This document shows, one piece after another, positions 7,604 through 35,373 of a stretch of 35,373 nucleotides of DNA. Source of the stretch: Thermotogaceae bacterium (lineage in GTDB: Bacteria; Thermotogota; Thermotogae; MWEM01); NCBI GenBank assembly GCA_030445775.1, contig JASUTC010000010.1:1-35373 (forward strand), written 5' to 3'. The notes below the pieces were generated by a model. The model ran no database searches. It was not told where the DNA came from and saw nothing but the letters and a program-made list of their open reading frames with translations. The translations under genes and the position numbers were made by a program. Each line of letters begins with the position of its first letter. Positions within the stretch are counted from its first letter, which is position 1.

Positions 7604-8077
7604 TTATTTGAAATTCTCATCTTCTATGACTTGAACCTGCTTAAAGGCGTTGGTGAGGAAATCTTTTTTGAATTCAAATCCTTCAAGGAATTCGGTGTTT
7701 AACCATCTGTCCAACATGTCAATGGCTTCCTGAGGAGCCAATTTCCAGCCACCCATGGTTAGAATGTTTGCGTTGTTAATAACTTTACACATCTTTGCTG
7801 CATAAGAACCTTCAACAACAGCTGCATAAACTCCTTTAAACTTATTCGCAACAATAGACATTCCCATGCCAGTACCACAGCATAGTAATCCTTTATCATA
7901 TTCTCCGGATTGAACCTTTTTTGCTACTTTTGGGGCTACTTCATAATAAGCTTGAAAATCTTCAAGGCTTTGCATTCCCAGATCTTCCACCTGGTATCCA
8001 TTTTCGATTAAATGCTCTTTTAATGCTTCTTTGAGTGGAAAACCGGATTTATCTGCACCGATAACAATTTTTTTCAT
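7604..8077 (-). CDS. sqwI: RpiB/LacAB-family sugar isomerase; candidate 4-deoxy-4-sulfoerythrose isomerase (SqwI-like)
   Basis: RpiB fold motifs GADKSGFPLKEALKEHL, LLCCGTGMGMSIVANK, LNTEFLEGF; atypical residues at canonical phosphate and ring-opening positions; operon context. Confidence 0.7.
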   Translation of the reverse strand: MKKIVIGADKSGFPLKEALKEHLIENGYQVEDLGMQSLEDFQAYYEVAPKVAKKVQSGEYDKGLLCCGTGMGMSIVANKFKGVYAAVVEGSYAAKMCKVINNANILTMGGWKLAPQEAIDMLDRWLNTEFLEGFEFKKDFLTNAFKQVQVIEDENFK

Positions 8078-10098
8078 TCTTTTCCCTCCTTAATTTTTAA
8101 CAATATGTTTTTGTTGTTGGACGTTTTGCGAATAAAGACCGGAGGCGCTCCCATAGGAGAAGCTATGAGATGTTTACCACCTTTAAACAGGGTTTCATCC
8201 CAAAGATAGATCCACTCATCTTCAGGTAGAAAAACCTCATGCACTTTTTCATCCGGTTTAAGAACTGGACTGATCAAAAGATCAGGGCCCAATAAAAATT
8301 CATCCTGAATATTTTTTGTTTCTTGTGAGGGATAATGTGTATAAAGATTTCTCATAAATGGAACACCGGACGTTGCGTTTTCCGCGTTCAATATTTTAAG
8401 ATACGGCTTCAGATTAACGTGGATATTCACCATCTTTTTCAGATGTTCCAAGACTTCTTCATCACAATCGAATTGGCAATTAATATCCGGCCGATTTCCT
8501 TCGTGTGAACGCATAACGGGAGTAAAGGCTGCTAATTCAATCCATCTCATGAGCAATTCCTTTGAACGTATAATTTTCCCAAATTGATTATCAAAAGTTG
8601 TATAGCCTCCGATATCCGAGTGACTGATACCAAAACCGCTTAGTCCAAGGGATAATGCGGCAGGTATAACAGAAGGCAGGCCGTCGTCTATGCTCCAATC
8701 AACCATTTGATCTCCATTCCACATTAACGTTGAATATCTTTGGGTAAAAGAATATCCCGCTCGAGTAAAGAAGACAACATCTCCCATCTTTCCACATTCT
8801 TCTAGAGCTTCGCGATTCAAACGTGCCCATAAAACCGGAAACTGATTGTGGATTAAGGCCGGGTCTTCCCCTGAATACAGTTGGCAATCGCAAGGGAGAT
8901 ATTCACCGAAATCTGCCATCCACCCTGATAATCCGATGGAAATCATGTTCCTCTTAATGACTTCCTTAAGCCAATGATAGGCTTCAGGATTAGTCAAATC
9001 AACCATCGCCGCCGGGAATGTGGTGACTTCCACCAAATAAATGTCGCCTTTACGGTCTTTCAAAAGAAAATCTCTTTCTTTTGCCTCAGTGAATAATGTT
9101 CCTTCTATTGCAAGAAAAGGGTTGATATAACCCATGGTTTTTATCCCGGAATCGTTTAACTCTTTAATCGTTTCAGGGAGATTAGGATACATAAACTCTT
9201 CATATTGCCAATTCCACATGAGTTGTTTACCAAATGCAGTGATCCTTTTACCTTCCCAATCTTGAATCCATATAGCGGAAATCTTGATACCTTTGTTGAA
9301 TGCATTTTTTACCTTTGGAAGAACAACTTTCGTTCCTCCTTGAAGTCCCAGTATCATCCCATCAAATATCCAGTCGGGTAATTGGGGTTGTAATCCAAAA
9401 TACTTGGTTTGTTTTTTTATCACGCTTAAAAAATCCTTATCTGTGCCGATTACAATCTCTTTTGGTATGTTCCAGCACTCTATTTGAGAATAATTCTCGT
9501 GAGTAAAATCAAATTCCATGTAACTGGTGTCATTGACATGACAAAAAACATTTGAAGAGGTAATAAATGATGGCTGGGGATAATAAGTGGTGTACCAATC
9601 ACCCCCGGCCTTGTCAAATTTGTCTGCAAAAAAGGTAAGGATTTCCTTTTTATTTCTTCCAACCCCTTGTTCTGACACCCATAAAGGTAATTTGCTTCCT
9701 TTGAGATTTAATCTGGAGTATTGCTCACCACAACCGTATATGGCTTCATCGTTGTTTGAAACCAAACGAATCCAAAACCGATTATAAAATGAGTCATCAG
9801 TTTGAATATTCATTTTTAATAATCCTTCTTCATCAATTTGAAAATTGATTCGAACCTGAAGGGATTCATAAAAAAAACGAATCAAGGCCTGTGTTTGATT
9901 GGATTCAATCACTTTAAAGTTTATTAAGGGTATTTTTGATTCCAGTTCAGACCTAATATCAAAATTTCCGTGGTACATCTCATACGTTGAAAAACCTTTC
10001 CCAATGAAAAAGGCTGGCTTTTCAAGTGAATGATGGATAACTGGTTTTCCATTAAAATCGATATGAAGTTCATGATTAGTTTCAACGATGGTTATCAT
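8074..10098 (-). CDS. yihQ: GH31 alpha-glycosidase of the YihQ/sulfoquinovosidase subfamily
   Basis: End-to-end resemblance to recalled E. coli YihQ: IYGCGEQYS, PLWVSEQGVGRNK, LPDWI.DG..LG.QGGT, QDW.G.R.T.FGK..MWNW, GGWMADFGEYLP (nucleophile Asp), WNGDQMVDWSIDDGLPSVIPAALSL (acid/base Asp), HSDIGGYTT; no signal peptide; start taken at ATG 10098 (MITIVET). Confidence 0.88.
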   Translation of the reverse strand: MITIVETNHELHIDFNGKPVIHHSLEKPAFFIGKGFSTYEMYHGNFDIRSELESKIPLINFKVIESNQTQALIRFFYESLQVRINFQIDEEGLLKMNIQTDDSFYNRFWIRLVSNNDEAIYGCGEQYSRLNLKGSKLPLWVSEQGVGRNKKEILTFFADKFDKAGGDWYTTYYPQPSFITSSNVFCHVNDTSYMEFDFTHENYSQIECWNIPKEIVIGTDKDFLSVIKKQTKYFGLQPQLPDWIFDGMILGLQGGTKVVLPKVKNAFNKGIKISAIWIQDWEGKRITAFGKQLMWNWQYEEFMYPNLPETIKELNDSGIKTMGYINPFLAIEGTLFTEAKERDFLLKDRKGDIYLVEVTTFPAAMVDLTNPEAYHWLKEVIKRNMISIGLSGWMADFGEYLPCDCQLYSGEDPALIHNQFPVLWARLNREALEECGKMGDVVFFTRAGYSFTQRYSTLMWNGDQMVDWSIDDGLPSVIPAALSLGLSGFGISHSDIGGYTTFDNQFGKIIRSKELLMRWIELAAFTPVMRSHEGNRPDINCQFDCDEEVLEHLKKMVNIHVNLKPYLKILNAENATSGVPFMRNLYTHYPSQETKNIQDEFLLGPDLLISPVLKPDEKVHEVFLPEDEWIYLWDETLFKGGKHLIASPMGAPPVFIRKTSNNKNILLKIKEGKE

Positions 10099-11044
10099 TT
10101 TCTCTGCCTTTCCTCGAAATGGCCTTTTTTGCAGTATCAACAATATCTTCAGCGGTCATTTTGTATTTTTTCAACAGGAAATCGGTTAATCCCACTTCTC
10201 CGAAATGATCTCGAATACCAATTCTCTCAAGTGGCACCGGATAGCTTTCAGTAAGCACTTCAGAGACAGCACTCCCCCAACCGTTGATGATACTGTGATT
10301 TTCTGCTGTCACAACTGCTCCTGTCTCCTTTGCCGCTTTGATAATTGTTTCACTGTCTACGGGTTTAAGGGTGTGCATATTCAATACCCTGGCATGAATA
10401 CCCTCTTTACCCAATAGTTCAGCAGCTTCCAAGCTGTTTTTAATCAGAATGCCACTACAGATAATGGTTACATCATTGCCGGATCTGAGTTCATAAATTT
10501 TTCCCAACTCAAACTCAGTATCTTGTTCAAAATATTGATCTTTTGATTTTCTGGCCAATCTCATGTACACAGGATTATCAACAGCTGCAATCTGAGGCAG
10601 CAAAGATTTTAATTGCACACCATCAGCAGGCTCCACAATCATCATATTTGGAATTCCTCTGATCAATCCGGCGTCTTCAACACTCATATGGGTGCCGCCG
10701 TTTAATTCCGCAGTGACTCCCGGATCAGTTCCGCCTATTTTGGCATTTAATTTTGCATAAGCAATGGATATAGCAATTTGATCCAGCACTCTTCTTGTTG
10801 CAAAGGGTGTAAATGAATGGGCAAAGGGGATCTTACCTGCAACAGCCAACCCTGCAGATACTCCCATCATATTGGCTTCGGCAACACCTACATCGATAAA
10901 ACGGTCCGGATATCTTTCTTTAAACGGTGTAGTCCCGGTGGCTTTCATTAGATCGGCTTCCAGCACAACAATTCGCTCATCTTTTTCCGCCATTTCCAAG
11001 AGTAATTCGGCATAAATCTGTCTGAGTTCTTTTTTGTTTGCCAT
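10082..11044 (-). CDS. sqwH: Transketolase C-terminal subunit (split transketolase, SqwH-like)
   Basis: IVVLEADLMKATGT, FIDVGVAEANMMGVSAGLA, FATRRVLDQI, GGTHMSVEDAGLIRGIPNM; start ATG at 11044 just past the N-subunit stop, with an alternative GTG at 11053. Confidence 0.85.
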   Translation of the reverse strand: MANKKELRQIYAELLLEMAEKDERIVVLEADLMKATGTTPFKERYPDRFIDVGVAEANMMGVSAGLAVAGKIPFAHSFTPFATRRVLDQIAISIAYAKLNAKIGGTDPGVTAELNGGTHMSVEDAGLIRGIPNMMIVEPADGVQLKSLLPQIAAVDNPVYMRLARKSKDQYFEQDTEFELGKIYELRSGNDVTIICSGILIKNSLEAAELLGKEGIHARVLNMHTLKPVDSETIIKAAKETGAVVTAENHSIINGWGSAVSEVLTESYPVPLERIGIRDHFGEVGLTDFLLKKYKMTAEDIVDTAKKAISRKGRENDNHR

Positions 11045-11045
11045 T

Positions 11046-11885
11046 CTATACACCAGCTTCCTTTAATTCATTTACTGCTTTTTTCCATTCTTCGGTGGAT
11101 ACTTTCATATTATGAGAACTGAGCTTATTTTCGGCAAAATAAGCACCTTTTCCCTTAACAGTATTAAGGATAATCATCGTTGGTTTTTCTTTGGTTTGTT
11201 TTGCCACTTCCAAAGCACCCGTAATTTGATTCATATCGTGTCCATTAACGGAGATGACATGCCAGCCAAATGCCTGCCATTTGTCTGTAAGGGGTTCTAA
11301 AGAATTGATGTCATCTGTTGTTCCGTCGATTTGCATCTTGTTGTAATCCTGTAATACTGTTAAATTATCCAATTGTTTGGTCGGGGCCAGCATAGCCGCT
11401 TCCCAGATTTGCCCTTCCTGGCTTTCACCATCTCCAATAATGCAATAAACCCTTGATTGTTTGTGATCAATTTTTTTCCCGATGGCAATACCAATGGCTG
11501 CAGATAAACCCTGCCCCAAGGAACCGGCCGTCATATCTATACCGGGTGTGAGGATCCTGTCACAATGAGAGGGCAGATTTGTATTGGGTTGATTCAGTGT
11601 GTCCGTCCATTCTTTCGGAAAGAAGCCCTTATCGGCTAATACAGCGTACAGAGCAGGCCCCCCGTGTCCTTTTGAAAGAACAAAATGATCTCGATCTTCC
11701 CATTTTGGATTTTTAGGGTCAACTTGCATTGTTTTATAATAGAGTGAAACCAAGGCTTCAATGATGGAAAGGGAACCTCCGATGTGTCCAACTCCTAATT
11801 TACCGATCATTTCAATGGTCAAACAACGAATCTCGGTTGCCTTTTTTTCAAGTTCCTTTAATTCGGTTTGATTCAAAGTATTCAC
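11046..11885 (-). CDS. sqwG: Transketolase N-terminal, ThDP-binding subunit (SqwG-like)
   Basis: GHIGGSLSIIEALVSLYY, DHFVLSKGHGGPALYA, GSLGQGLSAAIGIA, GDGESQEGQIWEAAMLA...DYNKMQIDG ThDP motif. Confidence 0.88.
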   Translation of the reverse strand: MNTLNQTELKELEKKATEIRCLTIEMIGKLGVGHIGGSLSIIEALVSLYYKTMQVDPKNPKWEDRDHFVLSKGHGGPALYAVLADKGFFPKEWTDTLNQPNTNLPSHCDRILTPGIDMTAGSLGQGLSAAIGIAIGKKIDHKQSRVYCIIGDGESQEGQIWEAAMLAPTKQLDNLTVLQDYNKMQIDGTTDDINSLEPLTDKWQAFGWHVISVNGHDMNQITGALEVAKQTKEKPTMIILNTVKGKGAYFAENKLSSHNMKVSTEEWKKAVNELKEAGV

Positions 11886-11889
11886 CTCT

Positions 11890-13005
11890 TTAATAGATTT
11901 TATTTAAAAATTTGATTAACTCAATTTTGGTGTATTTTTTAGGGTTAAGGGATGCGATGGGGGCTGATAGAGTGGTATTTGCAAGTTTTTCGATATCAGC
12001 CTCTTGGACACCCAATTCACTTAAAGTTGTAGGGGCGTGTATTGTTTTCATGATTTGATGCATCTTTTGAGACAATTGTTCAACGGATTTCAAATCCAGG
12101 TACTTGATTAAAACATCCATGGACTCTTTCATATAATTGTAATTTTCAACAATTAAGTTTGGAAGGGCCAAAGCACAGGCAAATCCGTGTTCCAAACCAT
12201 ATTCGTTGGTAAGCGGAAAACTCAACGCATGAAGGATGGTTGTCCTGGTTTGGGCAAATGATATACCAGCAAGGAGACTGGCGTAAAGAAGCTTTTCTCT
12301 AACCTCATAATTTTCGGGATCCTTAACAGCCTTCTCCAAATTCTCAATGATTGATTTCATCGCTTTCATAGACATCAATTTTGATAGTGGTTGGGATGAA
12401 TCCGCCCAATAGGCTTCAATGGCATGGGTGAACGCATCCAACGAAGTAGAGGCGGTTACTTTTGCGGGCATAGTGAAAGTCATCTTGGGGTCCAGAAAGG
12501 CTTGATCAGGCCAGAAATATTCTGAAACCAACGGTTTTTTTTGTCCCCGTTCCTTATCTGTATAAACCCCCACGTTGGTAACTTCACTACCTGTTCCGGA
12601 TGTTGTGGGAATGGCGATTAACCGTTTAGTCCTTTTTTCTATACTTTTTCCCTCAAAAAGATGATCTTGAAGAGTATCGCTGGTGTCAATCAAGCAGGAT
12701 ATGGCCTTTGCCGTATCAATAGCGCTACCTCCACCCAATCCTATAATGGTTTTTGCGTTTATTTCTTTGGCATATTGTGTACCTTTATTAACGGTTGAAC
12801 AAGACGGATTGGGTTCAACCTGACAAAAATCAAAAATATCACATTGTTTATCGATAGCTTCTTTAACTTGATCTACAATTCCTATTTTTTTTAAAACCGG
12901 ATCGCTAACGATCAAAATCGGTGTTTTCTTGATTTGTTGAGACAATTCTTTTATTTTACCCTTACCGAAAAAAATCTCTACGGGTAGAAAAAAACGAAAA
13001 TTCAT
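11890..13005 (-). CDS. sqwF: Iron-containing alcohol dehydrogenase; candidate sulfoacetaldehyde reductase (SqwF/TauF/PhpC-like)
   Basis: GGGSAIDTAKAISCL, IPTTSGTGSEVT, DAFTHAIEAYWA, HALSFPLTNEYGLEHGFACAL. Confidence 0.8.
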   Translation of the reverse strand: MNFRFFLPVEIFFGKGKIKELSQQIKKTPILIVSDPVLKKIGIVDQVKEAIDKQCDIFDFCQVEPNPSCSTVNKGTQYAKEINAKTIIGLGGGSAIDTAKAISCLIDTSDTLQDHLFEGKSIEKRTKRLIAIPTTSGTGSEVTNVGVYTDKERGQKKPLVSEYFWPDQAFLDPKMTFTMPAKVTASTSLDAFTHAIEAYWADSSQPLSKLMSMKAMKSIIENLEKAVKDPENYEVREKLLYASLLAGISFAQTRTTILHALSFPLTNEYGLEHGFACALALPNLIVENYNYMKESMDVLIKYLDLKSVEQLSQKMHQIMKTIHAPTTLSELGVQEADIEKLANTTLSAPIASLNPKKYTKIELIKFLNKIY

Positions 13006-13027
13006 ATACTTCCTCCCTTAATTTCTC

Positions 13028-13945
13028 TTAATTGCTTTGCACTTGTTTAGTCTTTTTTCTTCTTTGTATCAGGATGATTCCCATTGTTGATAGTAAAACA
13101 ATGATCATGCCAATGATTTGAATAGTCTTCAAGGTTTCCCCCAACAAGAAGAAACCAATTAGCGATGCAAAAACGGGCATGATCAACAAGGTGATTCTTA
13201 CTATCCAAACCGGCAAAATTCTTAGATTATAGTAATAAAGGATGTAAATAGCCGTTTGCATGATACCTGTATAAATCAGGGAAACCATCAGAATGGAATT
13301 TTCTTCAATGGTATGAATGGGTATCTTTCGTTCAAAAATCGTGAAAATCAAAAGGAAAATGATGAATGTAATCAGATTATTGTAAAAAGCTACGGTTGTA
13401 TCTCTTACCTTGACTCGTTTGTCCGTTTGAACGGATTTTATGATGAAACCGTTCAAGGCTACAAAAAGGGCACTGAGTATGAATAAAAGGTCACCGATGC
13501 CGTTGAGTTTGAAATTTGAGAAATCGATATCAATAACAAAAACGGTTCCAATTAAAATAAAGAAGGTTAGCAGCCAATCCGCTTTTGTAAACCGCTGCTT
13601 AAAAACCAAAATAGAGATGAAATTGGTAAACAAAACATCCGATTTCAACAATATCGCTGCATTTGAGGCTGTTGATAGCTGCAAACCCAAAAACGCTGTG
13701 ATATCCAAAGAAAAACCCAAAATACCGATCAAAATGAGTTTTGGGAAAACAGCTTTTATTGTCAAAAGATCTTTTTGATATCCCTTTATAAAGATAAAAA
13801 TCAAAAGGAATATTAAAGCTAACAGTCTGACCATAACGCCGACAAACAAAGGAGACAGCTGCAATAAAGAAAATCTGTTGGCGACGTAAAAACTCGACCA
13901 AACGATATTTAACAATAAAAGCGAAAAAACAGATTTTGAATCCAT
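13028..13945 (-). CDS. EamA/DMT-family 10-TM transporter, candidate sulfonate (isethionate) exporter
   Basis: Ten hydrophobic segments in two EamA-like halves (LLLNIVWSSFYVANRFSL...; GDLLFILSALFVALNGFIIK...); embedded in the operon. Confidence 0.75.
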   Translation of the reverse strand: MDSKSVFSLLLLNIVWSSFYVANRFSLLQLSPLFVGVMVRLLALIFLLIFIFIKGYQKDLLTIKAVFPKLILIGILGFSLDITAFLGLQLSTASNAAILLKSDVLFTNFISILVFKQRFTKADWLLTFFILIGTVFVIDIDFSNFKLNGIGDLLFILSALFVALNGFIIKSVQTDKRVKVRDTTVAFYNNLITFIIFLLIFTIFERKIPIHTIEENSILMVSLIYTGIMQTAIYILYYYNLRILPVWIVRITLLIMPVFASLIGFFLLGETLKTIQIIGMIIVLLSTMGIILIQRRKKTKQVQSN

Positions 13946-13951
13946 ATAACC

Positions 13952-15409
13952 TTAGATTAGCTCTTCCTTCAGCTTTTCTATTTCCTCAGAAGTCATTCCC
14001 TGTAGCTTTTCTCCCTTTCTTTCTGCTGTCAGGTAATCGATCATCTTTCTGTGATTTTCAGGATTTAAAGGATATTTAACTGCTGCCCATATTCCCAAAG
14101 CCATTAAAACGAGGGGTACAAATGAGATGATGATTCGAATGGTGAGTAAAACAGATTCCGGTTGAATACGTTCAACCGATTTTTCTACACCATTTTCAAG
14201 AATTATCTCAGGGTTAAGGTAACCGGTTACTCCTAATAGGAAAGTCACAAAGGCAACAGCAATTCCCGAGGCAAACTTTCTTGCAAAGGTTATAATACCG
14301 CTGAAAGAACCTTCTCTTCTTTCTGAATATGCCAGTTCGCCCACATCGGTCACATCTCCAAAAAGAGTATGGGGGATAACAGCTGCTGCACTGACTCCTG
14401 AACCAATCAATGCTGCCAAAATGATGACTAAATACAAAGGTGCACTTTGTGGAAGCATAAAGATCAATATGCTGCCAAAAGCCCAAATAATAGCCCCAAT
14501 AATAAATGCAAAGGTTTTACTCTTCTTTCTGGCGATAAACGCATAAAATGGAATAAACAAAATTTCTACAATCAAGAGAACTCCCAATACCATGGAGAGG
14601 GCTCCGGGTTCTAATACATAATATTTCATATAATAGGCAAAAATCATGGAAACAATATCCATACTCAAATAAGCGGCCAGAAACATTAGCAACAGATATC
14701 TGAAGGATTTAATCTTAAACGGATCGATAAACATGGCCTTGAAATTAACCGTTCTTTTTTGAGGCTTAAAGTCTTCCCGTTCTTTCGTTGAGAAAAATAC
14801 ACCTAACCATGGCAGTGAAAAAAGCAATCCAAAGACCATAGCCATAACAATATATCCGGTTCTTATATCAGCAAAAGAATTAACGATAAGCATTGGAATA
14901 ACGGCACAAACCAATGAAGAGCCAAGAGAAAAGGCCAATCTGATTGAATTGACGGAAGTTCTTTCGTTGTAATCCAAGGAGATTTCGGCTGACATGGCTT
15001 GATAAGGGACCATGACCATCGTTACAACGGTGTTGAAAAAAAGATAGGCAAATAAAACATAGATAAATTTCCCGGTTTGTGTATCAAAGTCAACCGGATA
15101 CCATAAAATGAAAAATGATATAAAAATCAAGATAATGCCGGCCAGAAAATAGGGCCTTCTTCTGCCTAATTTCGATTTAGTTCCATCTGTAATGGTTCCC
15201 ATGAAGGGATCGGTGACAGCGTCCCAAATCTTTCCGATTAAAAATACCGGTGAAACGTAAATCATATTCAGTCCGATTACGTCGGTTAAAAACAAAGCAA
15301 AGAAAAAATTAATGATGTTAAAAGCCCCGCCACCAAATATATCTCCGGCACCGAATAATAATTTGGTTTTTAGAGAAATCTTTCCATGAATATTGTTTTC
15401 GTTTTTCAT
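13952..15409 (-). CDS. GPH-family (glycoside-pentoside-hexuronide) cation symporter, YihO/YihP-like sugar importer
   Basis: KLLFGAGDIFGGGAFNIINFFFALFLTDVIGL, WDAVTDPFMGTITDGTKSKLGRRRPYFL, MVPYQAMSAEISLDYNERTSVNS motifs. Confidence 0.87.
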   Translation of the reverse strand: MKNENNIHGKISLKTKLLFGAGDIFGGGAFNIINFFFALFLTDVIGLNMIYVSPVFLIGKIWDAVTDPFMGTITDGTKSKLGRRRPYFLAGIILIFISFFILWYPVDFDTQTGKFIYVLFAYLFFNTVVTMVMVPYQAMSAEISLDYNERTSVNSIRLAFSLGSSLVCAVIPMLIVNSFADIRTGYIVMAMVFGLLFSLPWLGVFFSTKEREDFKPQKRTVNFKAMFIDPFKIKSFRYLLLMFLAAYLSMDIVSMIFAYYMKYYVLEPGALSMVLGVLLIVEILFIPFYAFIARKKSKTFAFIIGAIIWAFGSILIFMLPQSAPLYLVIILAALIGSGVSAAAVIPHTLFGDVTDVGELAYSERREGSFSGIITFARKFASGIAVAFVTFLLGVTGYLNPEIILENGVEKSVERIQPESVLLTIRIIISFVPLVLMALGIWAAVKYPLNPENHRKMIDYLTAERKGEKLQGMTSEEIEKLKEELI

Positions 15410-15412
15410 CTT

Positions 15413-16729
15413 CTACCTCACAATCTCCCATTTATTAATATGAGCTAAAATTTCAAAGGGTTTTGTATAATCACCGTAAACAACTGAAATATGATGAGCG
15501 AAGCCGTTATAGACCACCTTGTTCAACAATTCTTTTAATGGGATGTCGAAGCGTGCTTTCATATAGGTGCCTCGCAATTCTTTTTCCATTTGATGAGCCT
15601 CTCCTTTTCCAAGCAACAACCTTGTTTTTCCTCTGGCAGTATCAATTCTGCAGAAAGAAATTTCTCCGGATTTCATGACGAAATCGGCAGTTACACCTTT
15701 TCCGTCTGCATGATAAGAATTTAGAGAACAATTGCAAACTCCATCTGTTAGGTTGCAGGGAGCGACACCACAATGCCACAACAATGCGACATCTTCTTCC
15801 AAATTGACCTGAGAAAAGTCGGCCATGAATGGAGTTTGGGCACCAATTGCTTGATGGGCGATCATACTTATCAACCCTTCCACATCCCCTTCACACCCCA
15901 GTAAATAACCTTTCGATTGTAAATAGGACATGGATGCACATGGGGCGATACCAAATTCAGCTGCGAATTCAGGCCAACATCTGATGGCAAGTGCATCTAC
16001 ATTGTTTTCTTGCATGAATTTTTTGAATTTTGCCGACAGCTCAGCCACCTTTTTCAGTTGTTCTGGGGTGATGGCATGCACGTCAAAAATATCTTTCAAC
16101 TCTTCTTCAATACGTTCAATTTCATCATTTGATGTGTGGGCGTTTATGACTTCTCCCAGTTCATAATGGTCAAGAAGCATTCCGGTTTCAGCATAAGCAC
16201 CCAGCTCATCCACACCCACGTTAAAAAAACCTCTGGCTCTGTAGCCTAAAATACCAATATGATCTGAGCTTAAAGCCGTTTTTATTTTTATCGCATTGAT
16301 CCAATCCTCATCAATATCCTGAGAAACTGAAACATAAAAGCTGTCATTTCCGCCCTTATAAAGGTTGGAGGCATTGAGATTGACACCACACACGGAATTG
16401 AGCCTTATTTTACCGCCGTTATAGGGCAGTTCGGGAAGTCCCCATAGTAAAATGGGTTTTTGTAAGTTCTTGTTAATGATCAACGCTAAATGTCCTAAAT
16501 GGAAGGTTCCACTGATGATAACTACACCATCAATATTTTCCGAAAGTAATTGTTCGGAAGCTTTTTGAGCATCTTCCGGTTCTATCAAGGGTTGTTCGAC
16601 AAAAACGAATTCAACATCTTGTCTTTCGGAAAGATTTCGGATAATATCTTCGTATAACTTTCCAGCAGTTAAGTAATCAAAGCTCTTTCTGACCATGCAA
16701 ACCACACCTATTTTTGCCTTTCTTTTCAT
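15413..16729 (-). CDS. sqvD: L-fucose/L-arabinose isomerase-superfamily protein; candidate sulfoquinovose isomerase (SqvD-like)
   Basis: FucI/AraA-like domains: IDGVVIISGTFHLGHLA, ALAIRCWPEFAAEFGIAPCASMSYL, GCEGDVEGLISM, FMADFSQVNLEEDVALLWHCGVAP, GFAHHISVVYGDY. Confidence 0.72.
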   Translation of the reverse strand: MKRKAKIGVVCMVRKSFDYLTAGKLYEDIIRNLSERQDVEFVFVEQPLIEPEDAQKASEQLLSENIDGVVIISGTFHLGHLALIINKNLQKPILLWGLPELPYNGGKIRLNSVCGVNLNASNLYKGGNDSFYVSVSQDIDEDWINAIKIKTALSSDHIGILGYRARGFFNVGVDELGAYAETGMLLDHYELGEVINAHTSNDEIERIEEELKDIFDVHAITPEQLKKVAELSAKFKKFMQENNVDALAIRCWPEFAAEFGIAPCASMSYLQSKGYLLGCEGDVEGLISMIAHQAIGAQTPFMADFSQVNLEEDVALLWHCGVAPCNLTDGVCNCSLNSYHADGKGVTADFVMKSGEISFCRIDTARGKTRLLLGKGEAHQMEKELRGTYMKARFDIPLKELLNKVVYNGFAHHISVVYGDYTKPFEILAHINKWEIVR

Positions 16730-16745
16730 TTAATCCCTCCATCTT

Positions 16746-17969
16746 TTATTTATAAATTGCGCCTGTTTCGTAAAAAAGTCTTTCAAGTGCAAGTGCTAAA
16801 GGCCCAATCGCCTTGCATTTGTATTCAAGGCAACTGGTAACTATCTTATTTTTTATTGATTCTTTACACAACATCTGTTCAATTTGATTGATTAATTCCT
16901 TCATCAATGATTCATACTTAAACAATTCTCCAAAAAAGATAATTCTTTGAGGATCCAGAGTTTTCATCAGGTTGATGATACCGGTTGCCATATATTTGAT
17001 ATTGTCGTCAATAATCTTTTTGATATATGGATCACCATTTTCATAAGCCGAAAAAATCAACGAGGTGTTGATTTTCCCTTTATCTCCATTACATAGACGA
17101 TGAAGAATTGGAGTGGTTGATTTATCAAACGCCATTTGGACCGTTTTTTTCATTCTCCGAGTTGAAATAACCGCTTCCAAACAACCTTTTTGCCCGCAAC
17201 TGCATTGAGGACCATCAGAATTAACGATGATATGTCCGATTTCCCCGGCTTGGTTTTCAGAACCATAAATGAGTTTTTTGTTAATGACAATGGCAGCCCC
17301 AATACCCGGACCATGCTTAATAAAAACAAAATCATCGATGTTCTTTCGTTTTGAACAATTGATTTCTGCCATCGCTAAGGATCGTACGTTGTTATCAACT
17401 ACAACCGGTAACTTTAATGATTTTGACAAAAAGCCACCCAGATCAACTTCTTTATTCCAAATACCATATGCTTCCATACTTTTACCCGTATTTGGGTCTA
17501 CTTTACCAACGATACCGACGCCAATTCCAAGAATATTTCCTTTGGATATATCCAATTTCCATAGTAAATCCTTTATATTATCTATGATCTCATTTAAAAA
17601 GTTCTCCGGCATAACATTTGCGTTAGTTGCAAGCTCTTTGCTTGAAAGGATAGTGAGGTTGAGGTCAGAAATCGCTATTGTGGTCGTATCTTTTTCAATA
17701 TTTATGCCTAAAATAAATTTATGAGTTTTTTCAATTTTCAGGAGTATTTTTTTTCTACCGGCTTTGCCATTTCGCTCTTCAAGCCCGGCTTCTTTTAAAA
17801 TTCCTTCATTTAACATTTCAGTTGCGATGATTGTGATAGCACCGGGAGAAAGACCAGAAATAGCTGCTATGTCCTTTCGAGACATGGCTCCATGATCTCG
17901 GAGAATATTGAGCAAAACCGAACGATTGACTTTTTTAATTGAATTTAAATCCATGACCTTTTTTTTCAT
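16746..17969 (-). CDS. ROK-family transcriptional regulator, first gene of the operon
   Basis: N-terminal wHTH (NRSVLLNILRDHGAMSRKDIAAISGLSPGAITIIATEML) plus ROK domain (GEIGHIIVNSDGPQCSCGQKGCLEAVIS zinc motif). Confidence 0.92.
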   Translation of the reverse strand: MKKKVMDLNSIKKVNRSVLLNILRDHGAMSRKDIAAISGLSPGAITIIATEMLNEGILKEAGLEERNGKAGRKKILLKIEKTHKFILGINIEKDTTTIAISDLNLTILSSKELATNANVMPENFLNEIIDNIKDLLWKLDISKGNILGIGVGIVGKVDPNTGKSMEAYGIWNKEVDLGGFLSKSLKLPVVVDNNVRSLAMAEINCSKRKNIDDFVFIKHGPGIGAAIVINKKLIYGSENQAGEIGHIIVNSDGPQCSCGQKGCLEAVISTRRMKKTVQMAFDKSTTPILHRLCNGDKGKINTSLIFSAYENGDPYIKKIIDDNIKYMATGIINLMKTLDPQRIIFFGELFKYESLMKELINQIEQMLCKESIKNKIVTSCLEYKCKAIGPLALALERLFYETGAIYK

Positions 17970-18159
17970 AAGTTACACCACTATAGAGAATAAATTCGCC
18001 AAACATCAGGTTATAGTATACCAGAATAATCGAAAAAATTTAAACATTAAATTTATTTCTTTATCTCCGAAAATCAAGCATTTAAGTTGATTATGTATGA
18101 ATATCTAAAGAATTCTTTAAATATCGCTAATACCCTTTTATATTCACTGAATATTGTTT

Positions 18160-18188
18160 TTGATTTTTTTCTTTTTCTTTAGTATAAT
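18160..18188 (+). promoter_or_regulatory. Putative sigma-A promoter of the ABC operon (TTGATT-N17-TATAAT)
   Basis: TTGATT at 18160-18165, 17-bp spacer, TATAAT at 18183-18188; 66 bp upstream of the ATG at 18254, RBS AAGGAGG. Confidence 0.6.
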
Positions 18189-18253
18189 AAATTTGTCATT
18201 AGTTTAAGCTTTATATTTATTAACAAATAAACCTTAGAAGGAGGTATATTTTA

Positions 18254-19516
18254 ATGAGAAAACTTTTAGTTATCTTACTAACAGTGTTGTTTGCTACAAT
18301 GATGTTCTCTGAAACAATCAAAGTGTTAGCATGGGATGATGCACATTCCCAATCATGGAATACTTTGAAAAGCGATTTTGAAAAGGCGACAGGGATCAAG
18401 GTGGATCTTGAGCTGATACCCTCCGGTTCCATGCTTCAAAAAACGGCTTTGAATGTAACAGAAAACAGAGCAAACTATGATTTAGTAGCAATTGATGAGG
18501 GAAACGTCGCAAAATTTGGTGACCTTTTACTTCCTTATTCTCAGTGGCCTGAGGGAAAAGTTTATCCAAAAGTTAGCACCAATGATATCCCTGCAGCAAT
18601 ATTTGCAGCTGCTGAATGGGGTGGAAGACTCGTTGGAATACCCAACAATGGAAACATGTACATTTGGATGACCAGAGAAGATCTTATCGACAATGAAGAA
18701 TACCAGGCAGAATTCTTTGAACAATTTGGTTACGAACTTCAAGTTCCACAAACACTTGATCAATTGATGAATATGTGTGTATTCTTTGAACCAAAGGGAA
18801 TTTACGGTTTTGCACCATTTACAGCAACCAGTGAAGGAGCAACATGCGAAGCGGTCATGTTCTTTGAATCATTCGGAACAAGCGTTCTTGAAATGGTAGA
18901 TGGAAAATATCAGGTATCGCTTGACAGAGAAAAGGCATTACAGGCGATCATGTTCTATAAGGAATTAATGGACTATTCTCCACAAGGTGCTTTGAGTATG
19001 GGACATGCGGAAAGAATTGGTGCCTTTAGTGATGGTTTGGTATTCTCTATGTTCCAATGGCCCGGAATTGTACCTTCCCATGAAAATGTTGATGAATCAA
19101 TGGTTGCAGGACAAATCGTTTACAGTGCACCTCCTGCAGGACCATTTGCAAGAACCGCCGTTAGAGGTTGTTGGATTTTCGGGATACCTAAGGCTTCAGA
19201 AAATCAGGCAGCAGCAGCGGAATTTGCATACTGGGTTAACAATTACGATGTTGGTTTGAAATTGGCAGAAGAAGGTATGACTCCAGTCAGAACAGATTTG
19301 TTGAATGAACTTTCAGGAGAAAAACCCTGGTACACCGGTATGGCAGAAGCTGGGCAGTTTGCCGTGAGCAGGCCCAATCGTTCAGTTCATTATCCGGAAC
19401 TTTCAGAAGTCATAAAGAATAATTGGCTGGGCGCTGTAACAGAAAGAATGACTCCTGAAGAAGCAGTTGACAATATGATCCAAGAATTAAACGAATTATT
19501 GGAGTCCTATGAGTAA
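18254..19516 (+). CDS. Sugar ABC transporter substrate-binding protein (family 1 solute-binding)
   Basis: Signal peptide MRKLLVILLTVLFATMMFSE; FEKATGIKVDLELIPSGSMLQK, YDLVAIDEGNVAKFGDLL, WGGRLVGIPNNGNMYIWMTREDL. Confidence 0.9.
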   Translation: MRKLLVILLTVLFATMMFSETIKVLAWDDAHSQSWNTLKSDFEKATGIKVDLELIPSGSMLQKTALNVTENRANYDLVAIDEGNVAKFGDLLLPYSQWPEGKVYPKVSTNDIPAAIFAAAEWGGRLVGIPNNGNMYIWMTREDLIDNEEYQAEFFEQFGYELQVPQTLDQLMNMCVFFEPKGIYGFAPFTATSEGATCEAVMFFESFGTSVLEMVDGKYQVSLDREKALQAIMFYKELMDYSPQGALSMGHAERIGAFSDGLVFSMFQWPGIVPSHENVDESMVAGQIVYSAPPAGPFARTAVRGCWIFGIPKASENQAAAAEFAYWVNNYDVGLKLAEEGMTPVRTDLLNELSGEKPWYTGMAEAGQFAVSRPNRSVHYPELSEVIKNNWLGAVTERMTPEEAVDNMIQELNELLESYE

Positions 19517-20414
19517 TAGCACCAATGTAAAAAGGCTTCCCCTTCGTAAGAAGAGGGGGCCTTTTTTATACTTTATCTTACCGGCAGCAATAATCGTTGG
19601 TATCGTCCTTGTTTTCCCTATTATTTACGGGTTTGTGCTTTCATTTTTTAATTGGCCTCAGGTGGATGATGGGACAAGAGGCTTTATCAATGTGAAAAAT
19701 TACATAGAATTATTCAAAGATAACGAATTTTGGCATTCACTGTTTTTGCAATTAGGGTTTATCGTTATTGCCATCCCCATAGAATTAATTATTGGTTTTT
19801 TTGTGGCAATTCTGTTTAATCACGATTTTCCACTGTCCGGATTTTTAAGAACGCTACTTTTACTGCCTGTTTTTATTTTACCAATCCTGTCTGGTTTAAC
19901 CTGGAAACTCATGTTGCAACCCCGATACGGTGCCATCACTTATTTACTGTCCTTGTTTGGAATGGAATTTCCTCAAGGGATCCTTTCTGATCAATCCCTG
20001 GCGTATACAGCGGTGATTATTCAGGATATCTGGAGGATGTGGCCTTTCATGTTCATGATCTTATATGCCGGTATAACAAGTCTGCCAAAAGATGTTATGG
20101 AAGCGGCTGAAATTGATGGGGCGGGTTTCTTCAAAAAGACCTTTTTCATAACTTTGCCCATGTTGAGAGGGACCATTACCACAGCCATCCTTCTTAGGAC
20201 AATTGATGCATTAAGAATCTTCTCAGAAGTCTTTGTTATGACAGGGGGGGGCCCCGGTAACGGAACAATGCTTTTCTCTCTTTATATACATAAGCAAGCA
20301 TTTGAATTCGGTAAGCTGGGATATGCATCGGCAATGGCAGTGATATTGATTGTTATTTCTCTCTTCTTTGCCTTTGGTTTAGTCAGAAAAAACATGGATA
20401 TCGATACAATGTAG
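19509..20414 (+). CDS. Sugar ABC transporter permease (MalF/UgpA type)
   Basis: LMEAAEIDGAGFFKKTFFITLPMLRG EAA-loop and TGGGPGNGTMLFSLYIHKQAF motif; ATG overlaps the upstream stop. Confidence 0.9.
   Translation: MSNSTNVKRLPLRKKRGPFLYFILPAAIIVGIVLVFPIIYGFVLSFFNWPQVDDGTRGFINVKNYIELFKDNEFWHSLFLQLGFIVIAIPIELIIGFFVAILFNHDFPLSGFLRTLLLLPVFILPILSGLTWKLMLQPRYGAITYLLSLFGMEFPQGILSDQSLAYTAVIIQDIWRMWPFMFMILYAGITSLPKDVMEAAEIDGAGFFKKTFFITLPMLRGTITTAILLRTIDALRIFSEVFVMTGGGPGNGTMLFSLYIHKQAFEFGKLGYASAMAVILIVISLFFAFGLVRKNMDIDTM
19529..19568 (+). terminator. Terminator-like hairpin with U run inside the 5' coding region of the permease
   Basis: AAAAAGGCTTCCCCTTC-GTAA-GAAGAGGGGGCCTTTTTT: about 16-17 paired positions, with one mismatch and two G-U, then T6. 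Confidence 0.7.
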
Positions 20415-20420
20415 TGTGGG

Positions 20421-21260
20421 GTGTTTAAGATGAAGATGAAAAACAGAAAAAAGATTATCAAATGGATTATTTTTATATCGGCACTGATCATTGTATTGGT
20501 TGAATTATTTCCGATATGGATTATTATTTCCAACGGATTCAAGAGGGACTTGGATATCAGAAACAGCAATCCCTTTGACTTTCAGTTTAATCTGAGAAGT
20601 TACGAATTGGTTTTCCAAAAAAGTGATTTTGTACCGTCAATCATAAATTCACTCATAATTGGGTTGTCATCTACCATCATTTCATTAATCTTTGGTTCTA
20701 TGGCATCCTACGGTATCGCGCGTTTTAGATTCAGAGGCAGAAAGGGATTATCCTACTCTTTTCTGGTCTCAAGAATGGTTCCGCAAATTGCCCTTTCAGT
20801 CCCAATATTTATCCTATTTGATCGTTTATCATTGACAGATACACATATTGCTTTGATTCTAGCATATACCAGTTTTAATTTGCCGTATATTATCTGGCTT
20901 CTACTACCGTTTTTTAATTCCGTCTCACCTTCTTTTGAAGAAGCAGCAATGGTTGATGGTTGTAACAAAAGACAGGTATTTTGGAGGATTTTCCTTCCCT
21001 TGACAGCTCCAGGGTTAGTCGTGGCTGCAATTTTTGGTTTTATCATGGCATGGAACGAGTATATTTACGCTTTGATCCTAACGGGTAATGCAACAAAAAC
21101 AGCGCCTATTGCTGTTAATGGGTTTATGGGACAATACGCGCCAAAATGGGGCCAACTTGCAGCTTCAGGAACAATTATTTTGATTCCTATTATCATTTTT
21201 ACACTGACACTTCAAAAATATATTATTAAGGGGTTAACCGCCGGAGGCGTTAAGGGATAA
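20421..21260 (+). CDS. Sugar ABC transporter permease (MalG/UgpE type)
   Basis: EEAAMVDGCNKRQVFWRIFLPLTAPGLV EAA loop; FIMAWNEYIYALILT; start is GTG 20421 or ATG 20430. Confidence 0.9.
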   Translation: MFKMKMKNRKKIIKWIIFISALIIVLVELFPIWIIISNGFKRDLDIRNSNPFDFQFNLRSYELVFQKSDFVPSIINSLIIGLSSTIISLIFGSMASYGIARFRFRGRKGLSYSFLVSRMVPQIALSVPIFILFDRLSLTDTHIALILAYTSFNLPYIIWLLLPFFNSVSPSFEEAAMVDGCNKRQVFWRIFLPLTAPGLVVAAIFGFIMAWNEYIYALILTGNATKTAPIAVNGFMGQYAPKWGQLAASGTIILIPIIIFTLTLQKYIIKGLTAGGVKG

Positions 21261-30755: not shown

Positions 30756-31748
30756 ATGAAAAACAAAACAGTTACTATACGCGATGTTGCGAGGGAAGCA
30801 GGTGTTGGTGTTGGAACTGTTTCCAGAGTTTTGAATTCAGGTTCCGTTAAAGAAGACACGCGTAAAAAGATACAGGAGACTATCAAAAAACTCGGTTATA
30901 AACCAAATATGTTTGCCAGGACCCTTGCTGGAGGTAAATCAAAACGTATATTGGCCTTAATGCCTGAGGTAAAATCGGAATTTCATTGGCGCTTGTTGGA
31001 AAGCTTCGATCATGAAATAGATAAAGAAGATTATCAAAGCATTATCTACCCATTAATCTCGAAAAAGCGCTACGATGCATTAATTAACAACCCTTCTTTT
31101 GCCCAAGAAGTAGAAGGTGTTGTGATAATGACCATCACACCGAATATTTTTGATGACGGCATTCGTGTAAAAGTTCCTGTAGTTCTTATTGAAGAATTTC
31201 GTGAAAACTACAGTTGTGTTTATTTGAATAACCTTAAAGGCGGAAGGATTGCGGCTAATCACCTTTTAGAAAGAGATATCACAAAGTTTTATGCCATCTA
31301 TTCTTCTGCAGCGAATCCCTATATAAAAAACGAGCACATGAAAGAGCGAATAACTGGGTTTAAGAATACATTAAAAAGCAAAGGGATAGTTTTCACAGAA
31401 GATCAAATTATCTATGCAGACTACAGTCTCGGACCCAGTAATGAGATGATAAAGCTGATGTTGACTGAAACAAAACGGCCGGGAATATTTGCCATGACTG
31501 ATAACTTTGCCCTTCTCGTTATGCAGGTTGCTTCCACGATAGGCTTAATTCCTGGGAAAGATTTTTTTCTGGTTGGTTACGATAATCAAACTTGGACTGA
31601 AAAGGCTGGTTTGACTACGATTGAACAACCGATAGAGGAATTTGGTAAGGTTGGGGCACAACTTTTGATGGAAAGAATCAAGAATCCCGATGCACCTTTA
31701 CGACAAATAGAATTCCCGCCTTTGCTAATAAAGAGAAATACTACATAA
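30756..31748 (+). CDS. LacI-family transcriptional regulator
   Basis: VTIRDVAREAGVGVGTVSRVLNSGSVKEDTRKKIQETIKKLGYKPNMFARTL HTH and hinge; periplasmic-binding-like effector domain. Confidence 0.95.
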   Translation: MKNKTVTIRDVAREAGVGVGTVSRVLNSGSVKEDTRKKIQETIKKLGYKPNMFARTLAGGKSKRILALMPEVKSEFHWRLLESFDHEIDKEDYQSIIYPLISKKRYDALINNPSFAQEVEGVVIMTITPNIFDDGIRVKVPVVLIEEFRENYSCVYLNNLKGGRIAANHLLERDITKFYAIYSSAANPYIKNEHMKERITGFKNTLKSKGIVFTEDQIIYADYSLGPSNEMIKLMLTETKRPGIFAMTDNFALLVMQVASTIGLIPGKDFFLVGYDNQTWTEKAGLTTIEQPIEEFGKVGAQLLMERIKNPDAPLRQIEFPPLLIKRNTT

Positions 31749-31762
31749 AAGGAGGTTAGTTT

Positions 31763-32833
31763 ATGGGAAAGACTCCAACGGGAAATATCCTGAAACAGGA
31801 ACAATCATTGGCGTATAAGCTCCTTCTACCAACGTTAATTGTTTTAGCGCTTGTGGCCATTTATCCACTCGGTCAAGTGATTGTTACCAGTTTTACCAAC
31901 AGGGTATTTGCCAGCGACCAAGAGACAAAGTTCGTTGGATTTGACAACTACGCACAGCTTCTCGGTGTGACGTTTAAAGAACTGGAACCAAAAAAAGACA
32001 AGGAAACCGGCGAAATTATAAGAAATGAAGAAACCGGAGAGATCGAGTACGAAAGAGCCATTATGGTATTGCCCAGAACGCCAAACCGTTACAAGGAATT
32101 GTTTCAGTTTAACTGGTTTGGAAAAAGAATTGTAGTGGGTGCACGTGACCCTGAATTCTTAGGGGCTGTTGGTAATACGTTGGTGTTTACGTTCTTTTCA
32201 GTCTTGTTGGAAACGATTATCGGTTTATTTCTCGCATTAGTTGTCAACAGTAATTTCAAGGCAAAAGGCCTGATGCGAACCACGATGTTGATACCTTGGG
32301 CAGTTATCACCGTTGTATCGGCAAGAATTTGGCAATGGATGTTACAACCCGGAACAGCTGGATTCTTTAACATGATTATGTATAGACTTGGTTTATCTGA
32401 TGGACAAGCATCATTTTTAACCAATTCCGCCTTGCAGATGCCTACCATGGTCATGGTTGATGTTTGGAAAACTGCTCCTTATATGGCTTTGCTTCTTTTA
32501 GCAGGGTTGCAGATGATCCCTAAAGAATTATATGAAGCTTCTGAGGTGGATGGCGCTGGGAAGATCAGACAATTTTTTCAAATAACTTTGCCTCTTTTAA
32601 GGCCTTCACTGGCCGTAGCGCTGATTTTTAGAACACTTGATGCACTGAGGGTATTTGATGTGTTCCAGGTGCTGATGTCCAGTAAGATGTATTCAATGGC
32701 CTCCTATAATTATTTCCAATTGATTCAGAATAGAGCAATGGGGTTATCATCTGCAGTTGGAATGATTATCTTTGTCATCATCATGATATTCTCTATCATC
32801 TATATCCGAGCATTTGGAGTTGATCAAACATGA
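31763..32833 (+). CDS. Sugar ABC transporter permease (MalF-like)
   Basis: LYEASEVDGAGKIRQFFQITLPLLRPSL EAA loop; six TM helices plus charged loop insert. Confidence 0.92.
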   Translation: MGKTPTGNILKQEQSLAYKLLLPTLIVLALVAIYPLGQVIVTSFTNRVFASDQETKFVGFDNYAQLLGVTFKELEPKKDKETGEIIRNEETGEIEYERAIMVLPRTPNRYKELFQFNWFGKRIVVGARDPEFLGAVGNTLVFTFFSVLLETIIGLFLALVVNSNFKAKGLMRTTMLIPWAVITVVSARIWQWMLQPGTAGFFNMIMYRLGLSDGQASFLTNSALQMPTMVMVDVWKTAPYMALLLLAGLQMIPKELYEASEVDGAGKIRQFFQITLPLLRPSLAVALIFRTLDALRVFDVFQVLMSSKMYSMASYNYFQLIQNRAMGLSSAVGMIIFVIIMIFSIIYIRAFGVDQT

Positions 32834-33693
32834 GAAGACAAACTAAAAAGAAGATCAACAAGGTTTTATTCTGGGTTGTTGTCGTCTTCGTTTTTATCTA
32901 TCTCGTTTTCCCGTTTTATTGGGCACTTAATTCGTCTTTCAAAACGGAAAATCAGTTAATGATGACACCGGCGACGTTTGTACCAAGAGATGCAGAGGGG
33001 AATTTTGCCCCCACATTTGAAAACTACAAATCGGTTTTAACCAATCCCACATTCATGAGGGCCATACTGAACAGTACCATTGTAGGTGGTGTTACAACTC
33101 TTATTGCATTGGTTATTGGATCTTTTTCGGCATTCGCATTGGGTAAACTACGATTTAAAGGGAAAAAATTGTTCCTTTATTTGGTCTTATCAATGACCAT
33201 GTTCCCTCAAGTAACGGTATTAGCCGGTTTATATGCGGTAATTAATACTTTGGGAATATCAGCGATGCTCAGTATGATTTTATCTTATATGATCTTTACA
33301 CTACCGTTTACGACCTGGGTTTTGACAACATTCTTCAAAGAACTACCGGTTGAAATCATGCAGTCAGCACAGGTGGATGGTGCCACAGCTTTTCAGACGT
33401 TTTATTATATATTAATGCCGCTAACGGCACCTGCAATGGTAACAACGGGGCTTCTAGCTTTTATCGCAGCTTGGAATGAGTACTTATTTGCTTTAACCTT
33501 TACAAGTATTGAAACACAGGCTAGGACGATACCGGTCGCCATTTCATTGTTCACGGGAAAAATTGCCAGACAGGAGCCATTTGGCGAAATCATGGCCGGT
33601 GCGATATTAGTAACAATACCAATTGTCATACTGGTGTTAGTCTTCCAGAGAAGGATTGTAGCAGGATTAACTGCAGGCGCAGTTAAAGGATAA
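32830..33693 (+). CDS. Sugar ABC transporter permease (MalG-like)
   Basis: EIMQSAQVDGATAFQTFYYILMPLTAPAMVTTGL EAA loop; AAWNEYLFALTFT. Confidence 0.93.
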   Translation: MRRQTKKKINKVLFWVVVVFVFIYLVFPFYWALNSSFKTENQLMMTPATFVPRDAEGNFAPTFENYKSVLTNPTFMRAILNSTIVGGVTTLIALVIGSFSAFALGKLRFKGKKLFLYLVLSMTMFPQVTVLAGLYAVINTLGISAMLSMILSYMIFTLPFTTWVLTTFFKELPVEIMQSAQVDGATAFQTFYYILMPLTAPAMVTTGLLAFIAAWNEYLFALTFTSIETQARTIPVAISLFTGKIARQEPFGEIMAGAILVTIPIVILVLVFQRRIVAGLTAGAVKG

Positions 33694-33733
33694 AAAGAAC
33701 GGGTAGAACCCGAAAATTCAAGGAGGTTGAATT

Positions 33734-35002
33734 ATGAAAAAAGTATTGTTGACAGTTTTATTAGTTGCATTGTTGTCAGTGGCACTGTTTGCAGAAAAGA
33801 CAATCACAGTTGCTGCTGGTGCAGTAGGAATCGAATTGGAGCTTGCCAGACAGGCAGCTGCAGAATTTGAAGCGTTGTTCCCGGGAGTAAAGGTTAACGT
33901 TTTGGATACCCCGGACATGGTTCAGGACAGACTTGGACTCTATCTCCAATTCTTTGAAGCGCAGAGTGATAGAGTAGACGTTTATCAGGTGGATGTTATA
34001 TGGCCAGGAGATTTGGCACAACACTTTGTCGATCTTTACGAGTATGGCGCAAACGATTATGTACCCAATCACTTTCCGGCAATTGTTGAAAACAACACCG
34101 TAGATGGAAGATTAGTTGCTATTCCATGGTTTACAGATGCCGGTGTTCTTTATTACAGACAAGACTTGCTTGAAAAGTATGGTTTTGACGGTCCTCCGGA
34201 AACATGGGACGAACTTGAAGAAATGGCGCATGTTGTCATGGCTGGCGAAAAGAAGAACAATCCTGATTTCTGGGGTTTTGTTTTCCAGGGAAATGCTTAT
34301 GAAGGTCTTACTTGTGATGCCTTGGAATGGATTGCTTCCAACAATGGTGGAACCATTGTGAACAGAGACCAGGAAATTACCATTGCTAATCAAAATGCAG
34401 CTGAGATATTAGAACAAGTTGCTGGCTGGATTGGCGACATTTGTCCTGAAGGTGTTCTTGCCATGGATGAAGAAGGTGCAAGAAAAGTATGGCAGGCCGG
34501 AAATGCATTGTTCATGAGAAATTGGCCTTATGCTTATGCCCTTGGTAATGCAGATGACAGTGCCATCAAAGGTAAATTTGATGTAGCTGTTCTTCCTCAT
34601 GGAAAAGGAGAAAGTGCTGCAACACTGGGTGGTTGGCAGCTTGCTGTAAGTAAATACAGTAAAGATCCTGCACTGGCAGCACAAGTTGCATTCTTCATGG
34701 CAAATTATGACCATCAGAAGGCAAGAGCCATGGAATCTTATAACCCAACGATCAAGACGCTTTATCAGGATCCTGAAGTACTCGAAGCGGTACCTTTCTT
34801 TGGTTCACTTTACGATGTATTTACAAATGCTGTTGCAAGACCATCAACAGCTTCTGCTCCAAATTACAACGAAGTTTCAACACTCTTCTTCAAAGCTGTT
34901 CATCAAATCATCAGTGGGCAATCAAATGATGCATTGGCAACACTTGAAGAATTGGCATTGGATATTGCCGCTGTAACAGGTTTTGAACCAGTTTTTGAAT
35001 AA
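33734..35002 (+). CDS. Sugar ABC transporter substrate-binding protein (maltose/trehalose-type)
   Basis: Signal peptide; RVDVYQVDVIWPGDLAQHFVDLYEYG, AIPWFTDAGVLYYRQDLLEKYGFDGPPETWDEL, LGGWQLAVSKYSKDP. Confidence 0.92.
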   Translation: MKKVLLTVLLVALLSVALFAEKTITVAAGAVGIELELARQAAAEFEALFPGVKVNVLDTPDMVQDRLGLYLQFFEAQSDRVDVYQVDVIWPGDLAQHFVDLYEYGANDYVPNHFPAIVENNTVDGRLVAIPWFTDAGVLYYRQDLLEKYGFDGPPETWDELEEMAHVVMAGEKKNNPDFWGFVFQGNAYEGLTCDALEWIASNNGGTIVNRDQEITIANQNAAEILEQVAGWIGDICPEGVLAMDEEGARKVWQAGNALFMRNWPYAYALGNADDSAIKGKFDVAVLPHGKGESAATLGGWQLAVSKYSKDPALAAQVAFFMANYDHQKARAMESYNPTIKTLYQDPEVLEAVPFFGSLYDVFTNAVARPSTASAPNYNEVSTLFFKAVHQIISGQSNDALATLEELALDIAAVTGFEPVFE

Positions 35003-35016
35003 GATTAAGTTTAATG

Positions 35017-35044
35017 CCCCCCCTTTTTTGGGGGGGATTTTTTT
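35017..35044 (+). terminator. Intrinsic terminator between binding-protein gene and downstream GH13 gene
   Basis: CCCCCCC-TTTTTT-GGGGGGG-ATTTTTTT. Confidence 0.88.
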
Positions 35045-35046
35045 AG

Positions 35047-35373
<327 letters not shown>

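Follow-up and report, generated by a model that had tools for sequence, protein, structure and literature searches.

Can an enzyme of the GH31 sulfoquinovosidase (SQase) family act on a sulfonated sugar if it carries glutamine where its characterized relatives have the sulfonate-binding arginine? This question is raised by a gene in the window, i.e., the whole stretch of 35,373 nucleotides of Thermotogaceae DNA analysed here. SQases are annotated by the arginine of the QQRWY or KERWY signature, on which the explanation of sulfonate recognition also rests; we take this signature to comprise positions 262/288/301/304/508, with R301 and W304 being the sulfonate contacts of YihQ. A preliminary description of the window had placed a glutamine opposite R301 and offered two explanations, a new SQase variant or a shifted substrate.

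Glutamine at position 301 of a predicted sulfoquinovosidase

The gene and the residues discussed below are:
8074..10098, minus strand: GH31 glycosidase of the YihQ/sulfoquinovosidase family, 674 aa (NF007746, best PDB hits, AF2 fold match)
9340..9342, minus strand: Gln253, YihQ Q262 (alignment to YihQ)
9262..9264, minus strand: Gln279, YihQ Q288 (alignment to YihQ)
9223..9225, minus strand: Gln292, codon CAA, opposite YihQ Arg301 (alignment to YihQ)
9214..9216, minus strand: Trp295, YihQ W304, sulfonate contact (alignment to YihQ)
9007..9030, minus strand: coupled loop E357-V-T-T-F-P-A-A364, opposite YihQ E366-F-G-E-F-Y-G-G373 (alignments)
8911..8913, minus strand: Asp396, YihQ nucleophile D405 (alignments)
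8710..8712, minus strand: Asp463, YihQ acid/base D472 (alignments)
8602..8604, minus strand: Tyr499, YihQ Y508 (alignments to YihQ and Thermotogota rows)
8578..8589, minus strand: four-residue insertion N504-G507, shortly after Tyr499 (alignments)

An ATG at 10098 was preferred as the start codon, a longer TTG start at 10143 being less likely. The protein scored 888 bits against NCBIfam NF007746 (cut-off 553), and its best PDB matches were four SQases. Compared with the solved enzymes YihQ (5AED/5AEG/5OHT), AtSQase (5OHS/5OHY/7OFX), ErSQase SftG (6PNR), and BmSQase (8R56), it showed 40–46% identity and a similar overall length. An AF2 model (35 sequences, pLDDT 92.3, pTM 0.93) matched the four SQase crystal structures over the whole fold (Foldseek, TM 0.94–0.97, rmsd 1.3–2.1), the next GH31 structure being of the YicI type (TM 0.73). 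Fold and sequence together indicate that the window GH31 is a protein of the SQase family.

Residues were mapped with phmmer, which aligned the protein to YihQ (5aed) in a block without gaps and with an offset of +9 to native numbering. In this block, window residue 292 occupies the position of R301, and the minus-strand DNA with its translation, IQDWEGKRITAFGKQLMWNWQY, contains the CAA (Gln) codon at 9225–9223. The substitution was thus borne out, as were the earlier numbering of R301 and W304 and the retention of Q262, Q288, W304, and Y508 (window Q253, Q279, W295, and Y499). Like the solved SQases, the enzyme also keeps the catalytic Asp pair equivalent to D405 and D472 (D396 and D463). All four solved SQases have Arg at 301, however, and the window GH31 further differs from them by the insertion after Y508, a longer version of which occurs in part of the Thermotogota Gln types. 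Moreover, a loop that reads D/E-F-G-E-F-Y/D in the solved SQases is E-V-T-T-F-P (Pro371) in the window, with Thr at the Arg-linked E369 position (loop 357–364). A different Arg or Lys in register with R301 was not encountered: the 301 loop is ungapped relative to YihQ, no other Arg or Lys falls on the R301 column, and YihQ R294 corresponds to window R285, an ordinary neighbour of that column. Since the signature reads QQQWY instead of QQRWY or KERWY with the sulfonate Arg, we classed the enzyme as a variant. A subset with a changed sulfonate-site residue and distinctive gene clusters has been reported for GH188 SQases, an unrelated NAD-dependent family (PMC11465081). In that family, a backbone amide makes the contact and the site is intact, whereas the window GH31 loses the charged side chain itself.

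A predicted sulfo-TK gene cluster surrounds the enzyme

The GH31 gene lies among the following genes:
7604..8077, minus strand: RpiB/LacAB-family isomerase, SqwI-like, sulfoerythrose isomerase (PF02502; conserved with TK genes in sulfo-TK clusters)
10082..11044, minus strand: transketolase (TK) C-terminal subunit, SqwH-like (homology; R-A-F-D-R residues)
11046..11885, minus strand: transketolase N-terminal subunit, SqwG-like (homology)
11890..13005, minus strand: Fe-dependent alcohol dehydrogenase, SqwF-like, sulfoacetaldehyde to isethionate (PF00465)
13028..13945, minus strand: EamA/DMT exporter, candidate isethionate exporter (conserved in Thermotogota clusters)
13952..15409, minus strand: GPH-family sugar:cation symporter (family match)
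15413..16729, minus strand: SQ isomerase, SftI/SqvD-like, FucI fold family (NF048012)
16746..17969, minus strand: ROK-family regulator (family match)
18254..21260, plus strand: ABC importer, solute-binding protein and two permeases (family match)

A split SF-transketolase SqwGH and an RpiB-type SqwI thus occur together, as judged by homology and motif. The Fe-dependent alcohol dehydrogenase scored 239 bits with the SarD model, below its cut-off of 700. The only NCBIfam match of the SftI-like protein was NF048012 (SftI) with 197 bits, again below a cut-off of 700; it is 55–59% identical to homologues in sulfo-TK and SQase clusters elsewhere. ABC importer genes are common to Arg-type and Gln-type clusters of Thermotogota. 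As references we used the sulfo-TK clusters of Clostridium sp. MSTE9 and Faecalicatena (SqvD/SftI, SqwGH, SqwI, SqwF). The window shares with them a split transketolase with R-A-F-D-R, an RpiB-type isomerase, an Fe-dependent alcohol dehydrogenase, a putative SQ isomerase of the FucI type, a gene for a glycosidase, and an ABC importer; it is unlike them in its DMT exporter gene and its Gln-type GH31. DUF4867 (SqvB) was not found among the ten window cluster proteins scanned. Genes 7604–21260 are predicted to encode a sulfo-TK (isethionate-forming) pathway of ordinary, known layout, and the transketolase logic assumed in the preliminary description was right. Both sulfo-TAL/SuyAB and sulfo-TK clusters are on record in Thermotogae (PMC9594981, PMC12890257).

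The R-A-F-D-R residues have been reported for SF-transketolase (PMC11659671). Their value as proof of SF use is weakened by an RSFDR variant that occurs in Gln-type clusters and also in a transketolase outside such clusters. Two genomes of the window's family (G006 and G005) encode a split transketolase with RSFDR that is 65–66% identical to that of the window, on stretches (L250 and L251) in which no further sulfo-TK gene was found; the L250 gene adjoins unrelated genes. These proteins are possibly non-sulfo relatives of SqwGH. Elsewhere in the window, positions 30756–35373 hold a separate sugar-uptake cluster. It consists of a LacI regulator, an ABC importer, and a GH13-like gene that is truncated where the window ends. 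A search for plasmid DNA gave no match.

Gln301 is conserved and coupled to a second loop

Among 103 Thermotogota genomes surveyed, 29 contained a GH31 of the SQase family, with Gln at position 301 in 26 of 29 rows and Arg in three. A wider set, drawn from a GTDB genome scan and from surveys of Spirochaetota and of the class to which L110 belongs, comprised 139 family rows after removal of near-duplicates, picked by similarity rather than as a random sample. Position 301 was Arg in 77 and Gln in 62 of these rows, and no other residue was found. Homologs thus do share the glutamine, and Arg301 is not universal in the family, contrary to what had been presumed. Beyond Thermotogota, the GTDB scan located Gln types in Clostridia/Oscillospiraceae MAGs, other Bacillota, and Spirochaetales. 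A further Gln type belongs to a MAG labelled Bacteroides (L089), which may be mis-binned because the sequence nests with full support with L095, labelled Clostridium.

The substitution was accompanied by changes in the 366–371 loop, from D-F-G-E-F-Y/D with acidic residues 366 and 369 in YihQ to mostly x-V/I-T-T-F-P in Gln types. E369 was present in 70/77 Arg rows and in none of the 62 Gln rows. An acidic residue occupied position 366 in 99% of Arg rows versus 10% of Gln rows, and Pro371 occurred in 55/62 Gln rows, with mostly Tyr or Asp in Arg rows. Every row of the TTFPA type had Gln and every row with D-F-G-E-F had Arg. Therefore, a positive side chain and two negative ones jointly gave way to neutral residues; in YihQ, R301 would be in contact with the acids at 366 and 369. 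The coupling rests on few independent events, as only two changes at 301 appear on the tree, and co-variation by independent pairs yielded two pairs only, hence no statistical power.

Gln301 together with the matching loop change appears to define a conserved, undescribed 'QQQWY' branch of GH31 SQases. QQQWY did not turn up for GH31 in the open literature searched, which lay outside the main GH31 SQase papers. If this branch, which is large and crosses phyla, functions with Gln, signature-based annotation would miss about 45% (62/139) of a family set that is not a random sample, and the accepted model of sulfonate recognition would be incomplete. Sites 301 and 366–371 would also offer a clean, testable coupled pair for enzyme engineering and evolution.

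Many Gln-type enzymes lie in predicted sulfonate pathways

Twenty Thermotogota Gln-type loci had enough flanking sequence, and in each of them the GH31 gene was found beside either TK and SqwI or SftI, transaldolase (TAL), and SuyB-like genes, functions of neighbours being named by homology. The closest PDB match of the transaldolase was the SF-transaldolase BmSF-TAL, and ahead of the SuyB-like gene lies a SuyA-like ORF of 94 aa with a SAF domain, an arrangement reported for Thermotogae (PMC9594981). Firmicutes Gln types adjoin TAL and mostly SftI as well, and several Spirochaetota Gln types adjoin TK and SqwI. On the evidence of gene content, the neighbourhoods of the Thermotogota, the Firmicutes, and several Spirochaetota Gln types are predicted sulfonate pathways.

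If the Gln types served another substrate, their partner genes would be expected to split by GH31 type. Instead, trees of the solute-binding protein, SftI, SqwI, and the TK C-terminal subunit each showed 3–4 changes of Arg/Gln label, with the cluster types interleaved. For instance, Thermotogota L035 and L039 have a GH31 from the main Arg clade, yet their transketolases nest among those of Gln clusters. This interleaving implies that GH31s of either type replaced each other in a single pathway, and it is the strongest argument that both probably share one substrate.

In the sulfo-TAL loci of Thermotogota, a gene of the LarA family (nickel-pincer racemases) adjoins the SuyB-like gene in 6/13 cases (e.g., L047:5111-6355; also L048, L051, L053, L056, and L057). 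The enzyme is a candidate sulfolactate racemase that might link the product of SLA dehydrogenase to the R-specific SuyAB. Other bacteria use SlcC/ComC at this step. Our literature search found no paper assigning a LarA-family racemase to sulfolactate. In addition, a Bacillota MAG (genome G105, L059) contains three SQase-family GH31 genes. Two Gln types lie in tandem, with no sulfoglycolysis genes in the vicinity, and the remaining gene is next to TAL, TK, and SqwI.

Proposed function

We propose, with a probability of about 0.8, that the window enzyme is a retaining α-SQase of the QQQWY branch that serves the sulfo-TK pathway and holds the sulfonate without the Arg/acid network; it is most likely the enzyme that frees SQ in the source anaerobe. 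Imported SQ-glycerol or a similar SQ glycoside would be cleaved to release SQ, which would be converted into SF and processed by SqwGH twice with SqwI acting in between, before sulfoacetaldehyde is reduced to isethionate. Such a route would allow anaerobes to use SQ, the sugar of the plant sulfolipid and a very abundant plant sulfur compound. In the active site, we infer that the network of Arg301, D/E366, and E369 was replaced as a unit by Gln301, hydrophobic residues or Thr at 366–369, and Pro371. The sulfonate would probably be held by W304, a Y508-bound water, the backbone, and the Gln301 amide as a neutral hydrogen-bond site. A counter-argument is that mutation of Arg301 in YihQ reportedly impairs the enzyme badly; Gln by itself would then be insufficient in the YihQ background. 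We know of no Gln-type enzyme that has been assayed.

Improbable, but the best of the alternatives, is that Gln301 and the TTFPAA loop adjust aglycone or subsite specificity, so that the enzyme is retuned for SQ with a different aglycone, or for different SQ glycosides, and does not hold the sulfonate in a new way. Position K136 (YihQ P145) is basic in 87% of TTFPA-type Gln rows versus 12% of Arg rows and, together with the coupled loop, may face the aglycone side. Some genomes also hold both types: in Spirochaetota L194 (G416:C5), an Arg-type and a Gln-type GH31 flank a single sulfo-TK cluster, a natural pair for comparing specificity. Retuning would, however, have to explain a change in Arg301 itself, the published sulfonate contact, and the related, interleaved solute-binding proteins of both cluster types suggest the same import. 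A different Arg or Lys in register as a replacement for Arg301 was considered and rejected, none lying in the 301 loop; outside this loop, gained basic residues were few (K136 in the window).

Even less probable is a shift to a non-sulfonated 6-substituted or 6-deoxy α-glucoside, e.g., a quinovoside, processed by the same transketolase logic. In its favour, the sole positive sulfonate ligand is lost, the absence of the acidic partners leaves the pocket neutral, and lone Gln-type enzymes do occur in genomes without SQ isomerase. Against this stand SF-transaldolase and SuyAB-like sulfo-lyase genes beside Gln types, which are sensible only for a sulfonate, and the exchange of Arg and Gln GH31s among otherwise related clusters. 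For the window's clade, the shifted substrate of the preliminary description is therefore unsupported by the interleaved partner trees, while its other option, a new SQase variant, agrees with the family and fold match, the sulfo-TK cluster, and the SF-transaldolase, SQ-isomerase, and SuyAB-like neighbours of Gln types elsewhere. An ordinary SQase with a sequencing error or neutral single-site drift has practically no probability: CAA is one base from the Arg codon CGA, but the recurrence of Gln in Thermotogota and several phyla, always without E369, excludes an error.

The lone Spirochaetota Gln types (e.g., L185, L186, L188, L190, and L192) are the main reason why we do not equate the Gln type with SQase in general. 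These proteins are about 740–800 aa long, with an N-terminal hydrophobic segment in at least one (L188). No sulfoglycolysis genes were found near them, and an SftI homologue was absent from 13/13 genomes tested.

Evolutionary history

When the family tree was rooted on 18 GH31s from outside the family, the main Arg clade was placed inside a Gln grade. A second, small Arg group appeared among the Spirochaetota Gln types, with the loop DTTGI or TDTGE and not DFGEF. AU tests rejected both Gln as a single derived clade (p 0.0002) and Arg as a single clade (p 0.0006). A root on the main Arg branch was not rejected (p 0.22), and an ancestral Gln is for this reason a preference; the 301 loop is absent in other GH31s. 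At position 301, the older state is likely, but not certain, to be Gln. A tentative overall scenario, to which we would give somewhat less than even odds, is that Gln301 with TTFPA is older, that the Gln types hold the sulfonate in a neutral site, that the lone Spirochaetota Gln types are non-SQ enzymes, and that the Arg site with its acidic partners arose later and twice, once in the clade of YihQ and once, along with another loop, in a group of Spirochaetota and Lokiarchaeota. This second, independent Arg301 group consists of L079, L163, L164, L165, and L101, i.e., Spirochaetota and one Lokiarchaeota MAG, and its genes adjoin SftI.
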